Shown: positions 5,481-62,482 of the stretch, piece by piece | Numbering within the stretch: position 1 is the first letter of the stretch | Layout of the letters: each line of letters begins with the position of its first letter | Source of the DNA: Acetobacteraceae bacterium | Lineage (GTDB): Bacteria; Pseudomonadota; Alphaproteobacteria; Acetobacterales; Acetobacteraceae | Assembly (NCBI GenBank): GCA_947371015.1 | Contig: CANBNK010000004.1 | Span: 25,179 to 89,178 of the forward strand | DNA length: 64,000 bases | Direction: 5' to 3' | Position numbers and translations under genes: made by a program | Notes under the pieces: generated by a model | Told to the model about the DNA's origin: nothing | The model's input: only the letters and a program-made list of their open reading frames with translations | Databases searched by the model: none

Positions 5481-6989
5481 ATGGCGCAGATTCAACCCGG
5501 CCACGTGCTGATCAAGGGCGCGCGGCTGATGGACCCGGGCAAGCGCCGGGCCGAGGCCACCGACGTGCTGGTGACCGATGGCGTCATCGCCGCCATAGGT
5601 GTTGGCCTGGCGACGCCGGAGGGGGCGCAGATCGTCGAGGCCGAGGGGATGATCATCCACCCCGGGCTGATCAACGCGCACACCCACGGCCATGGCGGCC
5701 TGGCGCGCGGCCAGGGCGACAAGTGGACGCTGGAGCTGCTGCTGGCGGCGGCACCGTGGATCACCGGCAATCGGGCGACAGCGGACAAGAAGCTGACGAC
5801 GCAGATCATCGCCGCCGAGATGGTCAGCAAGGGCTGCACCGCGGCCTATGACCTGTTCTACGAATTCCCGCTGCCGTCGCAGGATGGGCTGGATGCGGTG
5901 GCCGAGGCCTATGCGGAAGTCGGCATGCGCGCGGTCATCGCGCCGATGGTGGCCGACCGCACGATGTATGAGGCCATCCCCGGCCTGTACGACGCGCTGC
6001 CGAGCGGGTTGCAGGCGCGGGTGGACAAGCTGCGGCTGAAGCCGTTCGGCGATACGCTGGCGGCGATGGAAGGCGCGCTGAAGGCGTGGAAGTGGAACAG
6101 CGCGGACATCCGCTTCGCGGTGGCGCCGACCATTCCGCTGCATTGCGCGGACGCCTTCATGTGCGCCTGCGGCAAGCTGGCGCGGGAGCATGGCGTCGGC
6201 CTGCACAGCCATATCGGCGAGAGCAAGGTGCAGGCGGTGGCCGGCATGAAGCGCTACGGCAAGACGCTGGTGGCGCATCTGGACGGGCTTGGCCTGCTGG
6301 GGCCGGACTTCACCGCGGCGCACGCCATTTGGCTGGATGATGAGGACCTGAAGCGCATGGCGGCGCATGGCGCATCGCTGGCGCATAACCCGGGCAGCAA
6401 CATGCGGCTGGGCAATGGCATGTTCCGCTTCCGCCAGGCGGTGGATGCGGGCGTGAATGTCGGCATCGGCACTGATGGCGCCAATTGCTCCGACAACCAG
6501 AACATGTACGAGGCGATGCGCTACGCCTCCATGCTGTCGAAGGTGCAGACGCCGGACCCGCGCTTCTGGGCCAGCGTGGAGGAAGTGTATTCCGCGGCGA
6601 CCAAGGGCTCGGCGCAGGCCATGGGGTTCAAGGATATCGGCGAGATCGCGGTCGGCAAGAAGGCGGATATCGTCTTCCTCGGCCTGGATACGCTGAACTG
6701 GATTCCGCACAACTGGAGCGTGAACCAGGTGGTGCATACCGAGGACGGCACCGGCGTGCGCCATGTGATGATCGGCGGCCGCTTCGTGTTCAAGGACGGC
6801 AAGCATACCACGCTGGACCTGCGCAAGCTGGCGGTGGAGGCCGAGGCCGCGCGCGAGCGGCTGGAGGCGCTGAATGCCGAGAACAAGCAGATGTACGACA
6901 TGCTGGAGCCGGTGGTGGCCAGCTTCTGCCCCGGCCTGGCGGCGCAACCGTATCATCTGAAGCGGTATCTCTGCGACGCGCCGGCGTAG
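5481..6989 (+). CDS. Amidohydrolase family protein (AtzB/TrzA/guanine-deaminase-like)
   Basis: 502 aa; metal-ligand motifs INAHTHGHGGLARG, LHSHIGES, GTDGANCSDNQNMYEAMRYASML. Confidence 0.9.
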   Translation: MAQIQPGHVLIKGARLMDPGKRRAEATDVLVTDGVIAAIGVGLATPEGAQIVEAEGMIIHPGLINAHTHGHGGLARGQGDKWTLELLLAAAPWITGNRATADKKLTTQIIAAEMVSKGCTAAYDLFYEFPLPSQDGLDAVAEAYAEVGMRAVIAPMVADRTMYEAIPGLYDALPSGLQARVDKLRLKPFGDTLAAMEGALKAWKWNSADIRFAVAPTIPLHCADAFMCACGKLAREHGVGLHSHIGESKVQAVAGMKRYGKTLVAHLDGLGLLGPDFTAAHAIWLDDEDLKRMAAHGASLAHNPGSNMRLGNGMFRFRQAVDAGVNVGIGTDGANCSDNQNMYEAMRYASMLSKVQTPDPRFWASVEEVYSAATKGSAQAMGFKDIGEIAVGKKADIVFLGLDTLNWIPHNWSVNQVVHTEDGTGVRHVMIGGRFVFKDGKHTTLDLRKLAVEAEAARERLEALNAENKQMYDMLEPVVASFCPGLAAQPYHLKRYLCDAPA

Positions 6990-10863: not shown

Positions 10864-10948
10864 GGCGCTTCCTCCGTTATTTGTCTGCCCGATGTTTCGC
10901 CGCAGCGGCAGCGGATGGCAAGCGGGCCTGTCTCGAATGTTTGAGCGG

Positions 10949-10988
10949 GTGTTTCACGCCTTTCGGCGATTCCGCCTCAGGCGATCAC
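10949..10988 (-). repeat. Double-hairpin repeat family, hairpin-1 only, inverted copy
   Basis: GTGTTTCACGCCTTTCGGCGATTCCGCCTCAGGCGATCAC aligns over 40 nt with the reverse complement of hairpin 1 of the full copies. Confidence 0.75.
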
Positions 10989-10993
10989 AGGCT

Positions 10994-11096
10994 AGAGCCT
11001 GATCGGCTTAGGCGAAATCGCCGTAAGCCGTGAATCAGTCTCTCAAACAACAAGCCTAGGAGCGTGAGCGCTTCAGTCAGAAGCGATCACGCTCTA
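10994..11096 (+). repeat. Double-hairpin intergenic repeat, full copy
   Basis: AGAGCCTGATCGGCTTAGGCGAAATCGCCGTAAGCCGTGAATCAGTCTCTCAAACAACAAGCCTAGGAGCGTGAGCGCTTCAGTCAGAAGCGATCACGCTCTA; near-identical to copies at 15311 and 21281. Confidence 0.95.
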
Positions 11097-11106
11097 GGGT
11101 GGGATT

Positions 11107-14628: not shown

Positions 14629-15312
14629 ATGCATCACCTGAACTTCGAATTCCGCAGCAAGGGCGCCAGCGAGCATCGCAGCGTGCCGATCCGCGACCTG
14701 GTCATCGCCGGGTGGACCGGGCGCGACGCGCACAAGGTGCAGGAGCATATTGAGGAGTTGGCCGCGATCGGCGTGGCGCCGCCACCCAGCGTGCCCTGCT
14801 TCTATCGCGGCTCGACGCTGCTGCTGACGACGGACGAACACATCGACTGCCTGGGGCCGGAGAGCAGCGGCGAGGCCGAGTTCTTCCTGCTGCTGCGGGA
14901 GGATGGCTGGTGGGTCGGTGCCGGTAGTGACCATACCGACCGCAAGGTGGAGGCGTATTCGATCACCGTTTCCAAGCAGATGTGCCCGAAGCCGGTCGCG
15001 CCGGTGCTGTGGAAGTTCGAGGACGTGGCCGCGCATTGGGACCAGCTGGTGATCCACTCCGAGGTGGATGACGGCAGTGGCTTCGTCACCTACCAGCAGG
15101 GCAGCATCGCGGCGATGCGCGACCCGCGCGACCTGATTGCGCGCTACGAAGCAGCGGTGGGCCAGCCGGGGCCGGATACGCTGATGTTCGGCGGCACGCT
15201 GCCGGTGCATGGTGGCATCCGTGCGCGGCAAAAATTCCGGCTTTCGCTGCATGACCCGGTGCGCGGTGAGACGATCCGCCACGCCTACACCACCCGCTGG
15301 CTGCCGAACTAG
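14629..15312 (+). CDS. DUF2848-family protein
   Basis: 227 aa; LVIAGWTGRDAHKVQEHIEELAAIGVAPPPSVPCFYRGS, GSDHTDRKVEAYSITVSKQMCPKP resemble DUF2848. Confidence 0.8.
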   Translation: MHHLNFEFRSKGASEHRSVPIRDLVIAGWTGRDAHKVQEHIEELAAIGVAPPPSVPCFYRGSTLLLTTDEHIDCLGPESSGEAEFFLLLREDGWWVGAGSDHTDRKVEAYSITVSKQMCPKPVAPVLWKFEDVAAHWDQLVIHSEVDDGSGFVTYQQGSIAAMRDPRDLIARYEAAVGQPGPDTLMFGGTLPVHGGIRARQKFRLSLHDPVRGETIRHAYTTRWLPN

Positions 15313-15412
15313 AGCCTGATCGGCTTAGGCGGAATCGCCGTAAGCCGTGAATCAGTCTCTCAAACAACAAGGCTAGAGCGTGAGCGCTTCAGTCAGAAGC
15401 GATCACGCTCTA
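15311..15412 (+). repeat. Double-hairpin intergenic repeat, full copy (overlaps the DUF2848 stop codon)
   Basis: AGAGCCTGATCGGCTTAGGCGGAATCGCCGTAAGCCGTGAATCAGTCTCTCAAACAACAAGGCTAGAGCGTGAGCGCTTCAGTCAGAAGCGATCACGCTCTA. Confidence 0.95.
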
Positions 15413-15419
15413 GCGTCCG

Positions 15420-15453
15420 GTCGCCGGAGGGCCGCAGGGCCCGGAGGCGTGAA
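15420..15453 (+). repeat. Second short palindromic repeat, copy 1
   Basis: GTCGCCGGAGGGCCGCAGGGCCCGGAGGCGTGAA; CGCC/GGCG and GGGCC/GGCCC arms; closely similar to 28402-28436. Confidence 0.6.
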
Positions 15454-15484
15454 CCGGCCGCTCATTTTCCGAGGGGATACGACG

Positions 15485-15871: not shown

Positions 15872-15881
15872 CCACGCGCGG

Positions 15882-15984
15882 CTGGACAGTGATCACCGCT
15901 GACTGAAGCGGTAATCACTGTCCAGCTTCCTTCGAGAGACTGATTCACGGCTTTCGGCGATACCGCCTAAGCCGATCAGGCTCA
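15882..15984 (-). repeat. Double-hairpin intergenic repeat, full inverted copy with rewritten hairpin-2 arms
   Basis: Minus strand: GAGCCTGATCGGCTTAGGCGGTATCGCCGAAAGCCGTGAATCAGTCTCTCGAAGGAAGCTGGACAGTGATTACCGCTTCAGTCAGCGGTGATCACTGTCCAG. Hairpin 1 is conserved; hairpin 2 (15882-15925) keeps the TTCAGTCAG core but has new complementary arms. Confidence 0.9.
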
Positions 15985-16434
15985 AAGCGCGTGGCGGTAG
16001 ATGATGAAGCCGGAGCGTTCCGCCAGCTTGTTGTACAGCGCCTGGGCGGTCGTGTTGGTCTCATGCGTCTGCCAGTACACGCGGAAGGCGCCGGCCTGCG
16101 TGGCGCGGGCATAGACCGCCTCGATCAAGGCGCGGCCGACGCCCTGGCCGCGCGTCTCCGGCGTGGTGAACAGGTCCGCCAGGTAGCAGTTCGGCTCCAC
16201 CATGTTGGTGCTGCGGTGGAACAGGTAGTGCACCAGGCCGACCAGCCTGCCGTCCTGTTCCGCCACCAGCGCATGCATCGGCTCGGCGGGGTCCAGGAAG
16301 CGCGCCCAGGTTATCAGGGTGGTGGCTTCCGGCACCGCTGTCGGGCCGCTGCGCTCATAGAAGGCATTGTAGCCGGCCCAGAGCGGCGCCCAGCCGGCGT
16401 AGTCGGCGGCGGAGACGGCGCGGATCAGCATCAC
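15982..16434 (-). CDS. GNAT family N-acetyltransferase
   Basis: 150 aa; LADLFTTPETRGQGVGRALIEAVYARATQAGAFRVYWQTHETNTTAQALYNKLAERSGFIIYR. Confidence 0.92.
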   Translation of the reverse strand: MMLIRAVSAADYAGWAPLWAGYNAFYERSGPTAVPEATTLITWARFLDPAEPMHALVAEQDGRLVGLVHYLFHRSTNMVEPNCYLADLFTTPETRGQGVGRALIEAVYARATQAGAFRVYWQTHETNTTAQALYNKLAERSGFIIYRHAL

Positions 16435-19299: not shown

Positions 19300-21282
19300 A
19301 TGAACGATTTGTTCGGTGGCAAGCGGCCGCCGAAGGGCGGCGCCGCCGAACCCGACTCCTACTCCGCCAAGGATATCGAAGTGCTGGAGGGGCTGGAGCC
19401 CGTCCGTCGCCGCCCTGGCATGTATATCGGCGGCACCGATGAGAACGCGCTGCACCACCTGGCCTCCGAGATCATCGACAACGCGATGGACGAGGCGGTG
19501 GCCGGGCATGCCAACTTCATCGAAGTGACGCTGGAGCCGGGCAACTGGCTGACGGTGCGCGACAATGGCCGCGGCATCCCGACCGACCCGCACCCGAAAT
19601 TCCCCAAGCAATCGGCGTTGGAGGTGATCCTCACCACGCTGCATTCCGGCGGCAAGTTCTCCGGCAAGGCCTATGAGACCTCGGGCGGGTTGCACGGCGT
19701 GGGGTCGTCAGTGGTCAATGCGCTGAGCGAACGGCTGGAGGTGGAGGTGGCGCGCGACCGCGTGCTGTACACCATGGCGTTTGCGCGAGGCGTGCCGCAG
19801 GGCAAGCTGAAGAATGCCGGGGCGGTGCATAACCGGCGCGGGACCGTCATCCGGTTCAAGCCGGACCCGGAGATCTTCGCCAAGCATGAGTTCAGCGCGG
19901 CCCGGCTGTACCGGTTCTGCCGCAGCAAGGCGTACCTGTACCGGGGCGTGGAAATACGCTGGGCCTGTGACGCGTCGCTGGCCAAGGACGAGACGCCAGC
20001 CAGCGCGGTGCTGCATTTCCCCGGCGGTCTCGGCGACTTTTTGGCCGCGGCGGTGCAGGGCAAGGCGCCAGTGGTGCCAGCGCCCTGGTGCGGCGGGGGT
20101 GACTTCCCTGAGGGCCAGGGCAGGTGCGAGTGGGCAGTGACCTGGCTGGACCATGCCGAGGGCTTCCTCAACACCTACGCCAACACCATCCCGACCCCGC
20201 AGGGCGGCACGCATGAGGCGGGGTTGCGGGCGGCGCTCGTCAAGGGCCTGCGGGCCTATGGCGAGATGAAGAAGGAAAAGCGCGCGGCGACGATCACGGC
20301 CGAGGACCTGCTGACTGGCATGGCCGGCATGTTGTCTGTGTTCATTCGCGAACCGCAATTCCAGGGCCAGACCAAGGACCGGCTGACCAGCCCCGAGGCC
20401 ACGCGCTACGTGGAGCAGGCGCTGCGCGACCACTTCGACCATTGGCTGACCGGCGACCCCGCGACTGCGGACAATCTGCTGGCCTGGGCGATCGAGCGGG
20501 CCGAAGACCGGATCAGGCGGCGGGAACAGAAGGACACGCCGCGCAAATCCGCCACGCGCAAGCTGCGGTTGCCGGGCAAGTTGGCCGATTGCGCGCGGGA
20601 AAGCGCCGAGGGGACCGAGCTTTTTCTTGTTGAGGGTGACTCGGCCGGTGGTTCCGCCAAGCAGGCGCGCGACCGGGAGACCCAGGCGGTGCTGCCGCTG
20701 CGGGGGAAAATCCTCAATGTTGCCAGTGCCAGCACGGAAAAGCTGCGCGGCAACCAGGAGCTGAAGGACCTGATCGAGGCGCTGGGCTGCGGCGTCGGCG
20801 AGAAATTCGACCTGGCCCGCCTGCGCTATGGCCGTGTCGTCATCATGACGGACGCCGATGTGGACGGCGCCCACATTGCGGCCTTGCTGATGACGTTCTT
20901 CTACAAGGAACTGCCGGTGCTGGTGCGGGAGGGCCGCGTCTTCCTGGCGCAGCCGCCGCTGTACCGGCTGCAGCATGGCGGCAAGAGCATCTATGCCAAG
21001 GACGATGCCGACCGCGAGCGGCTGATGAAGAAGGAGTTCAAGGCCAACGCCAAGGTGGAGGTCAGCCGCTTCAAGGGCCTGGGCGAGATGCCGCCGGCCG
21101 CCCTGAAGGAGACCACGATGGACCCGAAGAAGCGCACCCTGCTGAAGGTGGTGCTGCCGGCCGAGGACCGCGCCGCCACCGCCGAGCTGATGGAGGCGCT
21201 GATGGGCCGCAAGCCGGAGCTGCGCTTCAAGTTCATCCAGGACAATGCCGCCCGGATGGATGCCGAGGCGGTGGACGCCTAG
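19300..21282 (+). CDS. parE: DNA topoisomerase IV subunit B
   Basis: GHKL motifs EIIDNAMDEAVAGHA, DNGRGIPTDPHP, GGLHGVGSSVVNALSE; Toprim ELFLVEGDSAGGSAKQARDRETQAVLPLRGKILNV; DADVDGAHIAALL. Confidence 0.96.
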   Translation: MNDLFGGKRPPKGGAAEPDSYSAKDIEVLEGLEPVRRRPGMYIGGTDENALHHLASEIIDNAMDEAVAGHANFIEVTLEPGNWLTVRDNGRGIPTDPHPKFPKQSALEVILTTLHSGGKFSGKAYETSGGLHGVGSSVVNALSERLEVEVARDRVLYTMAFARGVPQGKLKNAGAVHNRRGTVIRFKPDPEIFAKHEFSAARLYRFCRSKAYLYRGVEIRWACDASLAKDETPASAVLHFPGGLGDFLAAAVQGKAPVVPAPWCGGGDFPEGQGRCEWAVTWLDHAEGFLNTYANTIPTPQGGTHEAGLRAALVKGLRAYGEMKKEKRAATITAEDLLTGMAGMLSVFIREPQFQGQTKDRLTSPEATRYVEQALRDHFDHWLTGDPATADNLLAWAIERAEDRIRRREQKDTPRKSATRKLRLPGKLADCARESAEGTELFLVEGDSAGGSAKQARDRETQAVLPLRGKILNVASASTEKLRGNQELKDLIEALGCGVGEKFDLARLRYGRVVIMTDADVDGAHIAALLMTFFYKELPVLVREGRVFLAQPPLYRLQHGGKSIYAKDDADRERLMKKEFKANAKVEVSRFKGLGEMPPAALKETTMDPKKRTLLKVVLPAEDRAATAELMEALMGRKPELRFKFIQDNAARMDAEAVDA

Positions 21283-21382
21283 CGTCTGATCGGCTTAGGC
21301 GGAATCGCCGTAAGCCGTGAATCAGTCTCTACAACAACATGCCTGGAGCGTGAGCGCTTCAATCAGAAGCGATCACGGTCTA
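21281..21382 (+). repeat. Double-hairpin intergenic repeat, full copy (overlaps the parE stop codon)
   Basis: AGCGTCTGATCGGCTTAGGCGGAATCGCCGTAAGCCGTGAATCAGTCTCTACAACAACATGCCTGGAGCGTGAGCGCTTCAATCAGAAGCGATCACGGTCTA. Confidence 0.94.
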
Positions 21383-21389
21383 GCGCCGC

Positions 21390-38268: not shown

Positions 38269-38278
38269 CCCGCGCCAG

Positions 38279-38494
38279 GGATTTGTCCGAGGCGCGCGGT
38301 GCCCTGCACACGGCGCGCGATTCGCCCGCGGCAAGCACTGGCCAACCCGGCGGCTTGTCCGAAACCTACGGCCGCTTGAATCCGGCACGGAGTGCGCCGC
38401 TGGCGGTCAGCGGCCACGCTGGGGATTTGTCCGAAGCGCGCGGTGCCCTACATCTGGCGCGGGCCAAGCCGCCGACGTTCAGTGGCCGCGCCCC
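38279..38494. repeat. Three-copy 72-bp tandem repeat between convergent genes
   Basis: TTGTCCGA recurs at 38283, 38355 and 38427 (spacing exactly 72). Units 1 and 3 share GGATTTGTCCGA[G/A]GCGCGCGGTGCCCT[G/A]CA; unit 2 is more diverged. Confidence 0.9.
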
Positions 38495-45528: not shown

Positions 45529-45632
45529 CTAGAGGCTGATCGGCTTAGGCGGCATCGCCAAAAGCCGTGAATCGGTCTCTCAAACAACAAAGCCAGAGCG
45601 CGAGCGCTTCTGCCAGAAGCGATCACGCTCTG
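45529..45632 (+). repeat. Double-hairpin intergenic repeat, full copy (diverged)
   Basis: CTAGAGGCTGATCGGCTTAGGCGGCATCGCCAAAAGCCGTGAATCGGTCTCTCAAACAACAAAGCCAGAGCGCGAGCGCTTCTGCCAGAAGCGATCACGCTCTG. Confidence 0.93.
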
Positions 45633-45680
45633 GGGTGACTGGTCCACCGCGGCGGGCCGGGCGCCGGGAATGGAGAATGC

Positions 45681-61366: not shown

Positions 61367-61451
61367 AGCCTGTCAGAAGCGCCTGACAGACTCCAGCGGT
61401 TGTCCGAGCGGCTGATTCACGCTGCCGGTGATGCCACCCGGCGACGATCAG
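61366..61451 (-). repeat. Double-hairpin intergenic repeat, diverged inverted copy
   Basis: Hairpin-2-like GAGCCTGTCAGAAGCGCCTGACAGACTC, then CTGATTCACGCTGCCGGTGATGCCACCCGGCGACGATCAG, the same 40-nt length and ends as hairpin 1 in reverse. Confidence 0.7.
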
Positions 61452-61617
61452 ACGCTGACGCCCAGCGGCGGCGGCCGACGCAGGTCGGCGGGACGCAAGC
61501 CTCAAATCGCTGAGCCCAATGCCGGAACTGCCAGCAGACCGCTCCAGCTGAACGGAGATCGCGCGACGGGCCGGCGCATGCTGGCAGCGCCGCGCCGCAA
61601 CGGCTAACCTGCCGCGG

Positions 61618-62408: not shown

Positions 62409-62419
62409 CGACGACAGGC

Positions 62420-62459
62420 TGATCCACGCCCTGCGGCGATGACGTCCCAGGCGATCAGG
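62420..62459 (-). repeat. Double-hairpin repeat family, hairpin-1-only diverged copy
   Basis: CTGATCCACGCCCTGCGGCGATGACGTCCCAGGCGATCAG: 40 nt with CTGAT...CACG...CGGCGAT...GATCAG as in inverted hairpin 1. Confidence 0.65.
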
Positions 62460-62482
62460 CTTCAACCCGAGGATACCCCGGA

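Follow-up and report, generated by a model that had tools for sequence, protein, structure and literature searches.

A CIR-like two-armed palindromic repeat of Acetobacteraceae: stem pairing across subfamilies and insertion at TA sites

Described repeat systems and the copy at 15882-15986

In 2003, Chen and Shapiro reportedly described the CcrM-associated intergenic repeats (CIR), with CIR1-CIR4 in Caulobacter and Brucella. The CIR of these genera are composed of two arms and a linker, have TA ends, are intergenic and contain GANTC sites, and a 2007 review on small mobile repeats in bacteria left the mechanism of their movement open, as requiring more information (PMC2229807). Judged from the published description, the element reported here is similar in its length (~110 bp), its two inverted-repeat arms and connecting linker, its GANTC sites (one at the terminal loop), its TA ends (here TAGAGC / GCTCTA), its confinement to intergenic DNA and its alphaproteobacterial host with CcrM. 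It differs in being found in Acetobacteraceae and in its arm 2, a near-perfect palindrome from which GANTC is usually absent. By analogy, we file the element as a putative new Acetobacteraceae-wide member of the CIR kind. RUP of Streptococcus pneumoniae and Correia/NEMIS of Neisseria (IS630/TA-type), compared by description only, are also ~105 bp long and foldable, with terminal inverted repeats and TA ends, and for RUP mobilization in trans by an IS630-family transposase has been proposed; unlike these, the present element has two independent arms instead of one end-paired long stem, GANTC sites and stop-codon fusion. REP/BIME with RAYT are likewise high-copy extragenic imperfect palindromes, some in tandem and often located behind genes, but no Y1 transposase was found in the carriers searched (G000 and 11 relatives), and the element itself has terminal inverted repeats, a TA target and about twice the unit length.

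The window, the whole 64,000-nucleotide stretch that was analysed, is C4:25179-89178 of a 5.37-Mb, 248-contig draft genome (G000). The copy on which we focused has the following parts:

15882-15986, minus strand: complete two-hairpin element, ~105 bp, recognized by its sequence, its match to the hairpin-1 covariance model R1 and an orthologous copy in the sister genome G004
15934-15986, minus strand: hairpin 1 (arm 1), 72.5 bits with R1
15926-15933, minus strand: linker of 8 nt joining both hairpins, read from the sequence
15882-15925, minus strand: hairpin 2, 44 nt, with the subfamily B arms GTGATnACCGC / GCGGTGATCAC
15942-15946, plus strand: GATTC, an instance of the CcrM methylation motif GANTC, in the 3' arm of hairpin 1

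The minus strand reads CTTTGAGCCTGATCGGCTTAGGCGGTATCGCCGAAAGCCGTGAATCAGTCTCTCGAAGGAAG followed by CTGGACAGTGATTACCGCTTCAGTCAGCGGTGATCACTGTCCAG. An earlier sequence-only reading had stated that this copy keeps hairpin 1 and still forms a 12+6-bp stem with one mismatch in hairpin 2. Both statements were confirmed: hairpin 1 is intact by its covariance-model score, and hairpin 2 pairs over 12 bp, one T.G and a further 6 bp, with a predicted RNA fold of -67.4 kcal/mol for 15880-15988. The GANTC of the loop has been lost and reads GTATC. At the 5' end of the copy, TTGAGCC overlaps the TGA stop of a GNAT acetyltransferase gene (15982-16434, minus strand). As G004 has the orthologous copy between the same cupin and GNAT genes, the copy is older than the split from G004; no such element was seen at this site in G003, G005, G002 or G001.

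The hairpin-2 arms had also been described as rewritten in this copy, which does not hold, as they belong to a second hairpin-2 subfamily. Arms of the GTGATCACCGC type are also found behind hairpin 1 at L033, L037 and L046 of G000 and at loci of G003, G004 and G005. The arms are a subfamily trait, present at no fewer than three other G000 loci and several sister-genome loci, and not a private rewrite. An unrelated adjacent palindrome, the origin that the same reading had allowed for, was ruled out, as the same arm type trails hairpin 1 at several loci and species. Orthologous copies were too few for an in-place compensation test; between the 15882 copy and its G004 ortholog, a manual reading found five differing hairpin-2 pairs, all changed on one side only, with one pair broken. 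The 15882 copy belongs to hairpin-2 subfamily B and is an older, orthologous resident at the end of the GNAT gene; nothing special attaches to its minus orientation.

Copies in the window, in the genome and across the family

The window holds six copies, complete or half, between 10.9 and 45.6 kb, and three degenerate hairpin-1 copies elsewhere. This repetition is far beyond chance (7 matches vs 0.33 expected). Besides the 15882 copy, these are:

10943-10995, minus strand: older half-copy (10938-10995) with hairpin 1 only, GCCTGA/AAAGGC subfamily, also present in G004
10992-11098, plus strand: complete element of subfamily A, inserted at the end of the older half-copy
15309-15415, plus strand: complete element of subfamily A, its TAG end being the stop codon of gene 14629-15312 (DUF2848)
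15410-15463, plus strand: GC-rich degenerate hairpin-1 relative adjoining the 15309 copy, 42 bits with R1
21279-21386, plus strand: complete element, its TAG end serving as stop codon for gene 19300-21282 (gyrase/topoisomerase IV subunit B)
45529-45634, plus strand: complete element with CCAG...CTGG hairpin-2 ends
61406-61458, minus strand: degenerate hairpin-1 copy, 45.9 bits with R1
62413-62465, minus strand: degenerate hairpin-1 copy, 54.6 bits with R1

Two of these copies had been cited as supporting compensatory change. In the 10938-10995 half-copy, the swaps from C-G to G-C and from G-C to C-G are present, but they are a trait of the other subfamily and not compensation in a single copy. 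For the 45529 copy, the change of a hairpin-2 T-A pair to C-G was verified; in this copy, pair 9 also has a T to C change that is not compensated. The GC-rich repeat at 15410-15463 (CGTCCGGTCGCCGGAGGG...) was also seen at L123:3008-3056, G003:C1:144150, G004:C8:107696 and G005:C304:4242, and in Paeniroseomonas aquatica. A direct 74-nt repeat at 38270-38343 and 38414-38487 (73% identical, 144 nt apart) is apparently unrelated to the element.

In G000, a 103-base query gave at least 40 scored copies, and R1 gave 31 matches in 461 kb, which extrapolates to ~360 hairpin-1 copies per genome. None of 42 full copies lay within a called gene. Among the matches listed, R1 was found in 97 of 250 genomes of the order, covering 30 of the 58 genera sampled, and at lower scores in 20/288 other genomes of the class. 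Several other orders have two inverted hairpin-1-type arms joined by a linker, of the form TAGAGC..GATCG-stem-CGTGAATC..CTCTA. A search of Rfam 15 at gathering and relaxed thresholds gave nothing credible and nothing above any family's gathering threshold, a plasmid collection gave no match to the element, and literature searches for palindromic repeats of Acetobacteraceae/Roseomonas and for stop-codon-targeting MITEs returned nothing specific. Hairpin 1 also occurs by itself in tandem arrays at ~54-57-nt spacing (L069:18115-18281, L076:4524-4683 and 5793-5897), with further arrays at G116:C23:72907-73013 and G177:C26:183454-183615. Another small palindromic repeat, of the AGAGCAATATCCG...CGGATATTGCTATAG type, has similar TAGAGC ends (L161:870-906, and L227 after 1761).

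Insertion at TA, stop codons and candidate transposases

Several copies could be compared with empty sites in sister genomes. The 15309 copy is absent from G004, G003 and G005, and G004 reads AACTAG|CGTCC where G000 reads AACTAG-element-CTAGCGTCC. The 10992 copy is absent from G004 and G003, its empty site being a CTA within the older half-copy, and the site of the 21279 copy is empty in G005. Empty sites of the N-TAG form were found for L018 (CTAG, in G004), L137 (TTAG, in G003) and L041 (TTAG, in G003). All empty sites are consistent with insertion at TA, preferably N-TAG, and retention of TA on either side. As the ends of the element themselves read TAG, the TA target-site duplication is partly hidden.

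Since the element begins with TA-GAGC and finishes with GCTC-TA, a stop codon that is struck by an insertion is rebuilt as TAG. Consequently, the first bases of the element form the stop codon of the upstream gene in 16 of the 39 copies with a called upstream gene. Read from the sequences, 15 of these fused stops are TAG and one is TGA, and there are a few more fusions at the element's 3' end. Outside the elements, TAG stops account for 12% of the TA sites and 21% of the CTAG sites in noncoding DNA, so stop codons are over-represented among the insertions, an enrichment that comes from a simple home-made gene caller and whose baseline is perhaps diluted by other CTAG-containing repeats. The excess may reflect target preference or selection against other sites. 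Stop codons thereby emerge as safe landing sites that are rebuilt by the element itself. Of the 81 flanking genes, 54 end towards the element; these 3'-facing flanks meet its two ends about equally (28 vs 26), with no orientation preference. The gyrase/topoisomerase IV subunit B stop codon is supplied by the element at 21279-21386, and the sister genomes use TGA there. The TAG stop at L033 (G000:C111:9622) and its orthologs at L214 (G003) and L226 (G004) bear three different small palindromic elements.

For mobilization, we considered IS630-family elements, which in genomes of the family have TAGAGCnTGAT-type ends ~1050 bp apart and are recognized by the DDE_3 profile. Their reading frames are split in two here, as is common among IS630 elements (IS630 frameshifting). 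For other subfamilies in genomes of the family, the termini of IS and element are identical over 14-15 bases: TAGAGCGTGATGAC is common to the IS at L191 (G022) and the element at L262 of the same genome, and TAGAGTCTGTCAGGC to the IS at L187 (G005) and element ends in G000. No IS with subfamily A or B ends was found in genomes of the family, and no autonomous IS630 with subfamily-A-identical ends was found in the genus, where many IS copies lie at contig ends and the absence is weak evidence. On the strength of these shared ends, IS630-family (Tc1/mariner-type) transposases, whose own elements have TAGAGCnTGAT ends, would move the element in trans, and mobilization by transposases of this type is probable. 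The movement of CIR can now be tested, considering the empty sites in sister genomes, the TA/TAG target, the matching IS630 ends and the family-wide copies.

Base pairing across subfamilies, decay of resident copies and competing explanations

Pairing is preserved in both arms from one subfamily to another, whereas resident copies drift. In hairpin 1, 29 diverse sequences gave 61 double-change cells vs 20 when shuffled, and 51 diverse sequences of the family gave 126 vs 44; the signal was gone when the partner was slid by one to three columns, and RNAalifold, unprompted, predicted the same fold. Covariation was scored with a home-made script imitating R-scape, in which Fitch ancestral states on a FastTree tree were used, substitutions were replayed at random columns and an APC-corrected G statistic was calculated. 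In a first run, in which near-identical copies from a single genome predominated, no pair had E < 0.5 when all pairs were tested, although six of the top 12 belonged to the structure; the result became positive once diverse subfamilies were added. With the 51 sequences, in an alignment whose first rows were hand-picked for diversity, the top six of 1378 column pairs were all in the proposed fold, three pairs had E < 0.05 over all pairs, six had E < 0.05 over the 19 proposed pairs, and no pair outside the fold reached E < 0.05. Hairpin 2 covaries similarly, a figure that is biased upwards as its arms were located by maximizing pairing. The covariation in a larger alignment that had been anticipated from the sequence alone was therefore seen for both hairpins. 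Hairpin 1 also keeps its asymmetries across the family, namely a 3-nt TGA bulge, a bulged G and a GAAT loop, and the CGTGAATC side of the bulge is also found in other orders.

Young copies show a different pattern (44 near-identical subfamily-A copies for hairpin 1, and 33 such copies for hairpin 2). In hairpin 1, we counted 65 one-sided changes and two two-sided changes, one of them compensated; change rates were 4.1% per paired vs 4.8% per unpaired site, and 16 G.U vs 19 A.C products indicated no G.U excess. In hairpin 2, 17 compensated double changes kept Watson-Crick pairing, several of them inherited in common. Hairpin 1 of young resident copies is decaying like neutral DNA, so its structure is apparently preserved in the lineages that propagate and not locus by locus. 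By inference, lineages that give rise to new copies require or regenerate pairing, whereas ordinary loci do not maintain it. The sequence-only reading had concluded from covariation that the folded form is functional, and the covariation stands at the level of the family; the function of resident copies does not, considering the decay of the 44 young ones. Here lies a trap: a repeat family can show strong covariation even as every resident copy decays, and covariation by itself is no proof of a structural function at a given locus. The paired arm changes are real, but they mark repeat subfamilies and are no evidence that the 15882 copy serves the cell.

We therefore read the 15882 feature, with a probability of roughly 70%, as a copy of a non-autonomous two-armed palindromic element of the CIR kind that inserts at TA, has arms paired across subfamilies and is probably mobilized by IS630. 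It is unlikely that the hairpins instead act as RNA at each locus, as a 3' untranslated part that stabilizes the mRNA, stops transcription or slows translation near the stop. Such a role would suit the strong family covariation, the copies whose hairpin 1 begins at a stop codon (16/39) and the flanking genes that end towards the element (54/81), and REPs located no more than 15 nt from a stop codon do stall ribosomes in E. coli (PMC5082802, PMC12306157). However, resident copies are without constraint, their G.U products do not exceed A.C, the two element ends meet 3'-facing flanks equally and there is no T-run for an intrinsic terminator. Similarly improbable as the full account is a mutational origin of the apparent compensation, in which template switching during replication lets one palindrome arm correct the other, without selection on the fold. 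The abundance of compensated changes in the near-perfect young hairpin 2 (17) and their near absence from the imperfect young hairpin 1 (one) are what it would produce. Arm-to-arm correction would nevertheless erase the hairpin-1 asymmetries that are kept family-wide, which argues that it is not the whole story, and hairpin 1 covaries strongly between subfamilies.

A REP-like element that a hairpin-recognizing Y1 transposase (RAYT or IS200/IS605) mobilizes in single-stranded form could explain the imperfect hairpins with conserved bulges, the tandem hairpin-1 arrays and the fixed short target adjoining insertions. We regard it as very improbable: a search for Y1 (PF01797)/RAYT transposases, for which E. 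coli and Caulobacter as positive controls gave matches, found none in G000 or in 11 relatives carrying the element, and terminal inverted repeats with TA targets suit IS630 better. Under the CIR-kind reading with IS630-type mobilization, the arms would be maintained only in copies that seed new copies, where folded or symmetric arms would help propagation, and hairpin 2, as a near-perfect palindrome, may also be homogenized by template switching.

A further idea concerns CcrM, which is active on GAnTC in double- and single-stranded DNA and not on ssRNA (PMC6787082). G000 encodes this enzyme, its protein matching the solved CcrM 6pbd with E 1.4e-143. Hairpin 1 has GANTC in the loop in 32 of 51 sequences and in the 3' arm in 45 of 51, and 27 hairpin-1 copies (1431 bp) contained 27 GANTC vs 0.9 expected from the genome density. 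In young resident copies, GANTC positions are not especially conserved. That CcrM gates movement, with methylation of the GANTC in the arm-1 loop and bulge, or their single-strandedness at the replication fork, timing the action of an IS630-type transposase on the ends, is a speculative and rather doubtful proposal; if true, the repeat would spread in step with the cell cycle. In the window together with L057-L076 (461 kb of G000), both motifs are strongly depleted: GANTC occurs once per 1590 bp and CTAG once per 4154 bp, where composition would predict one per ~360 bp.
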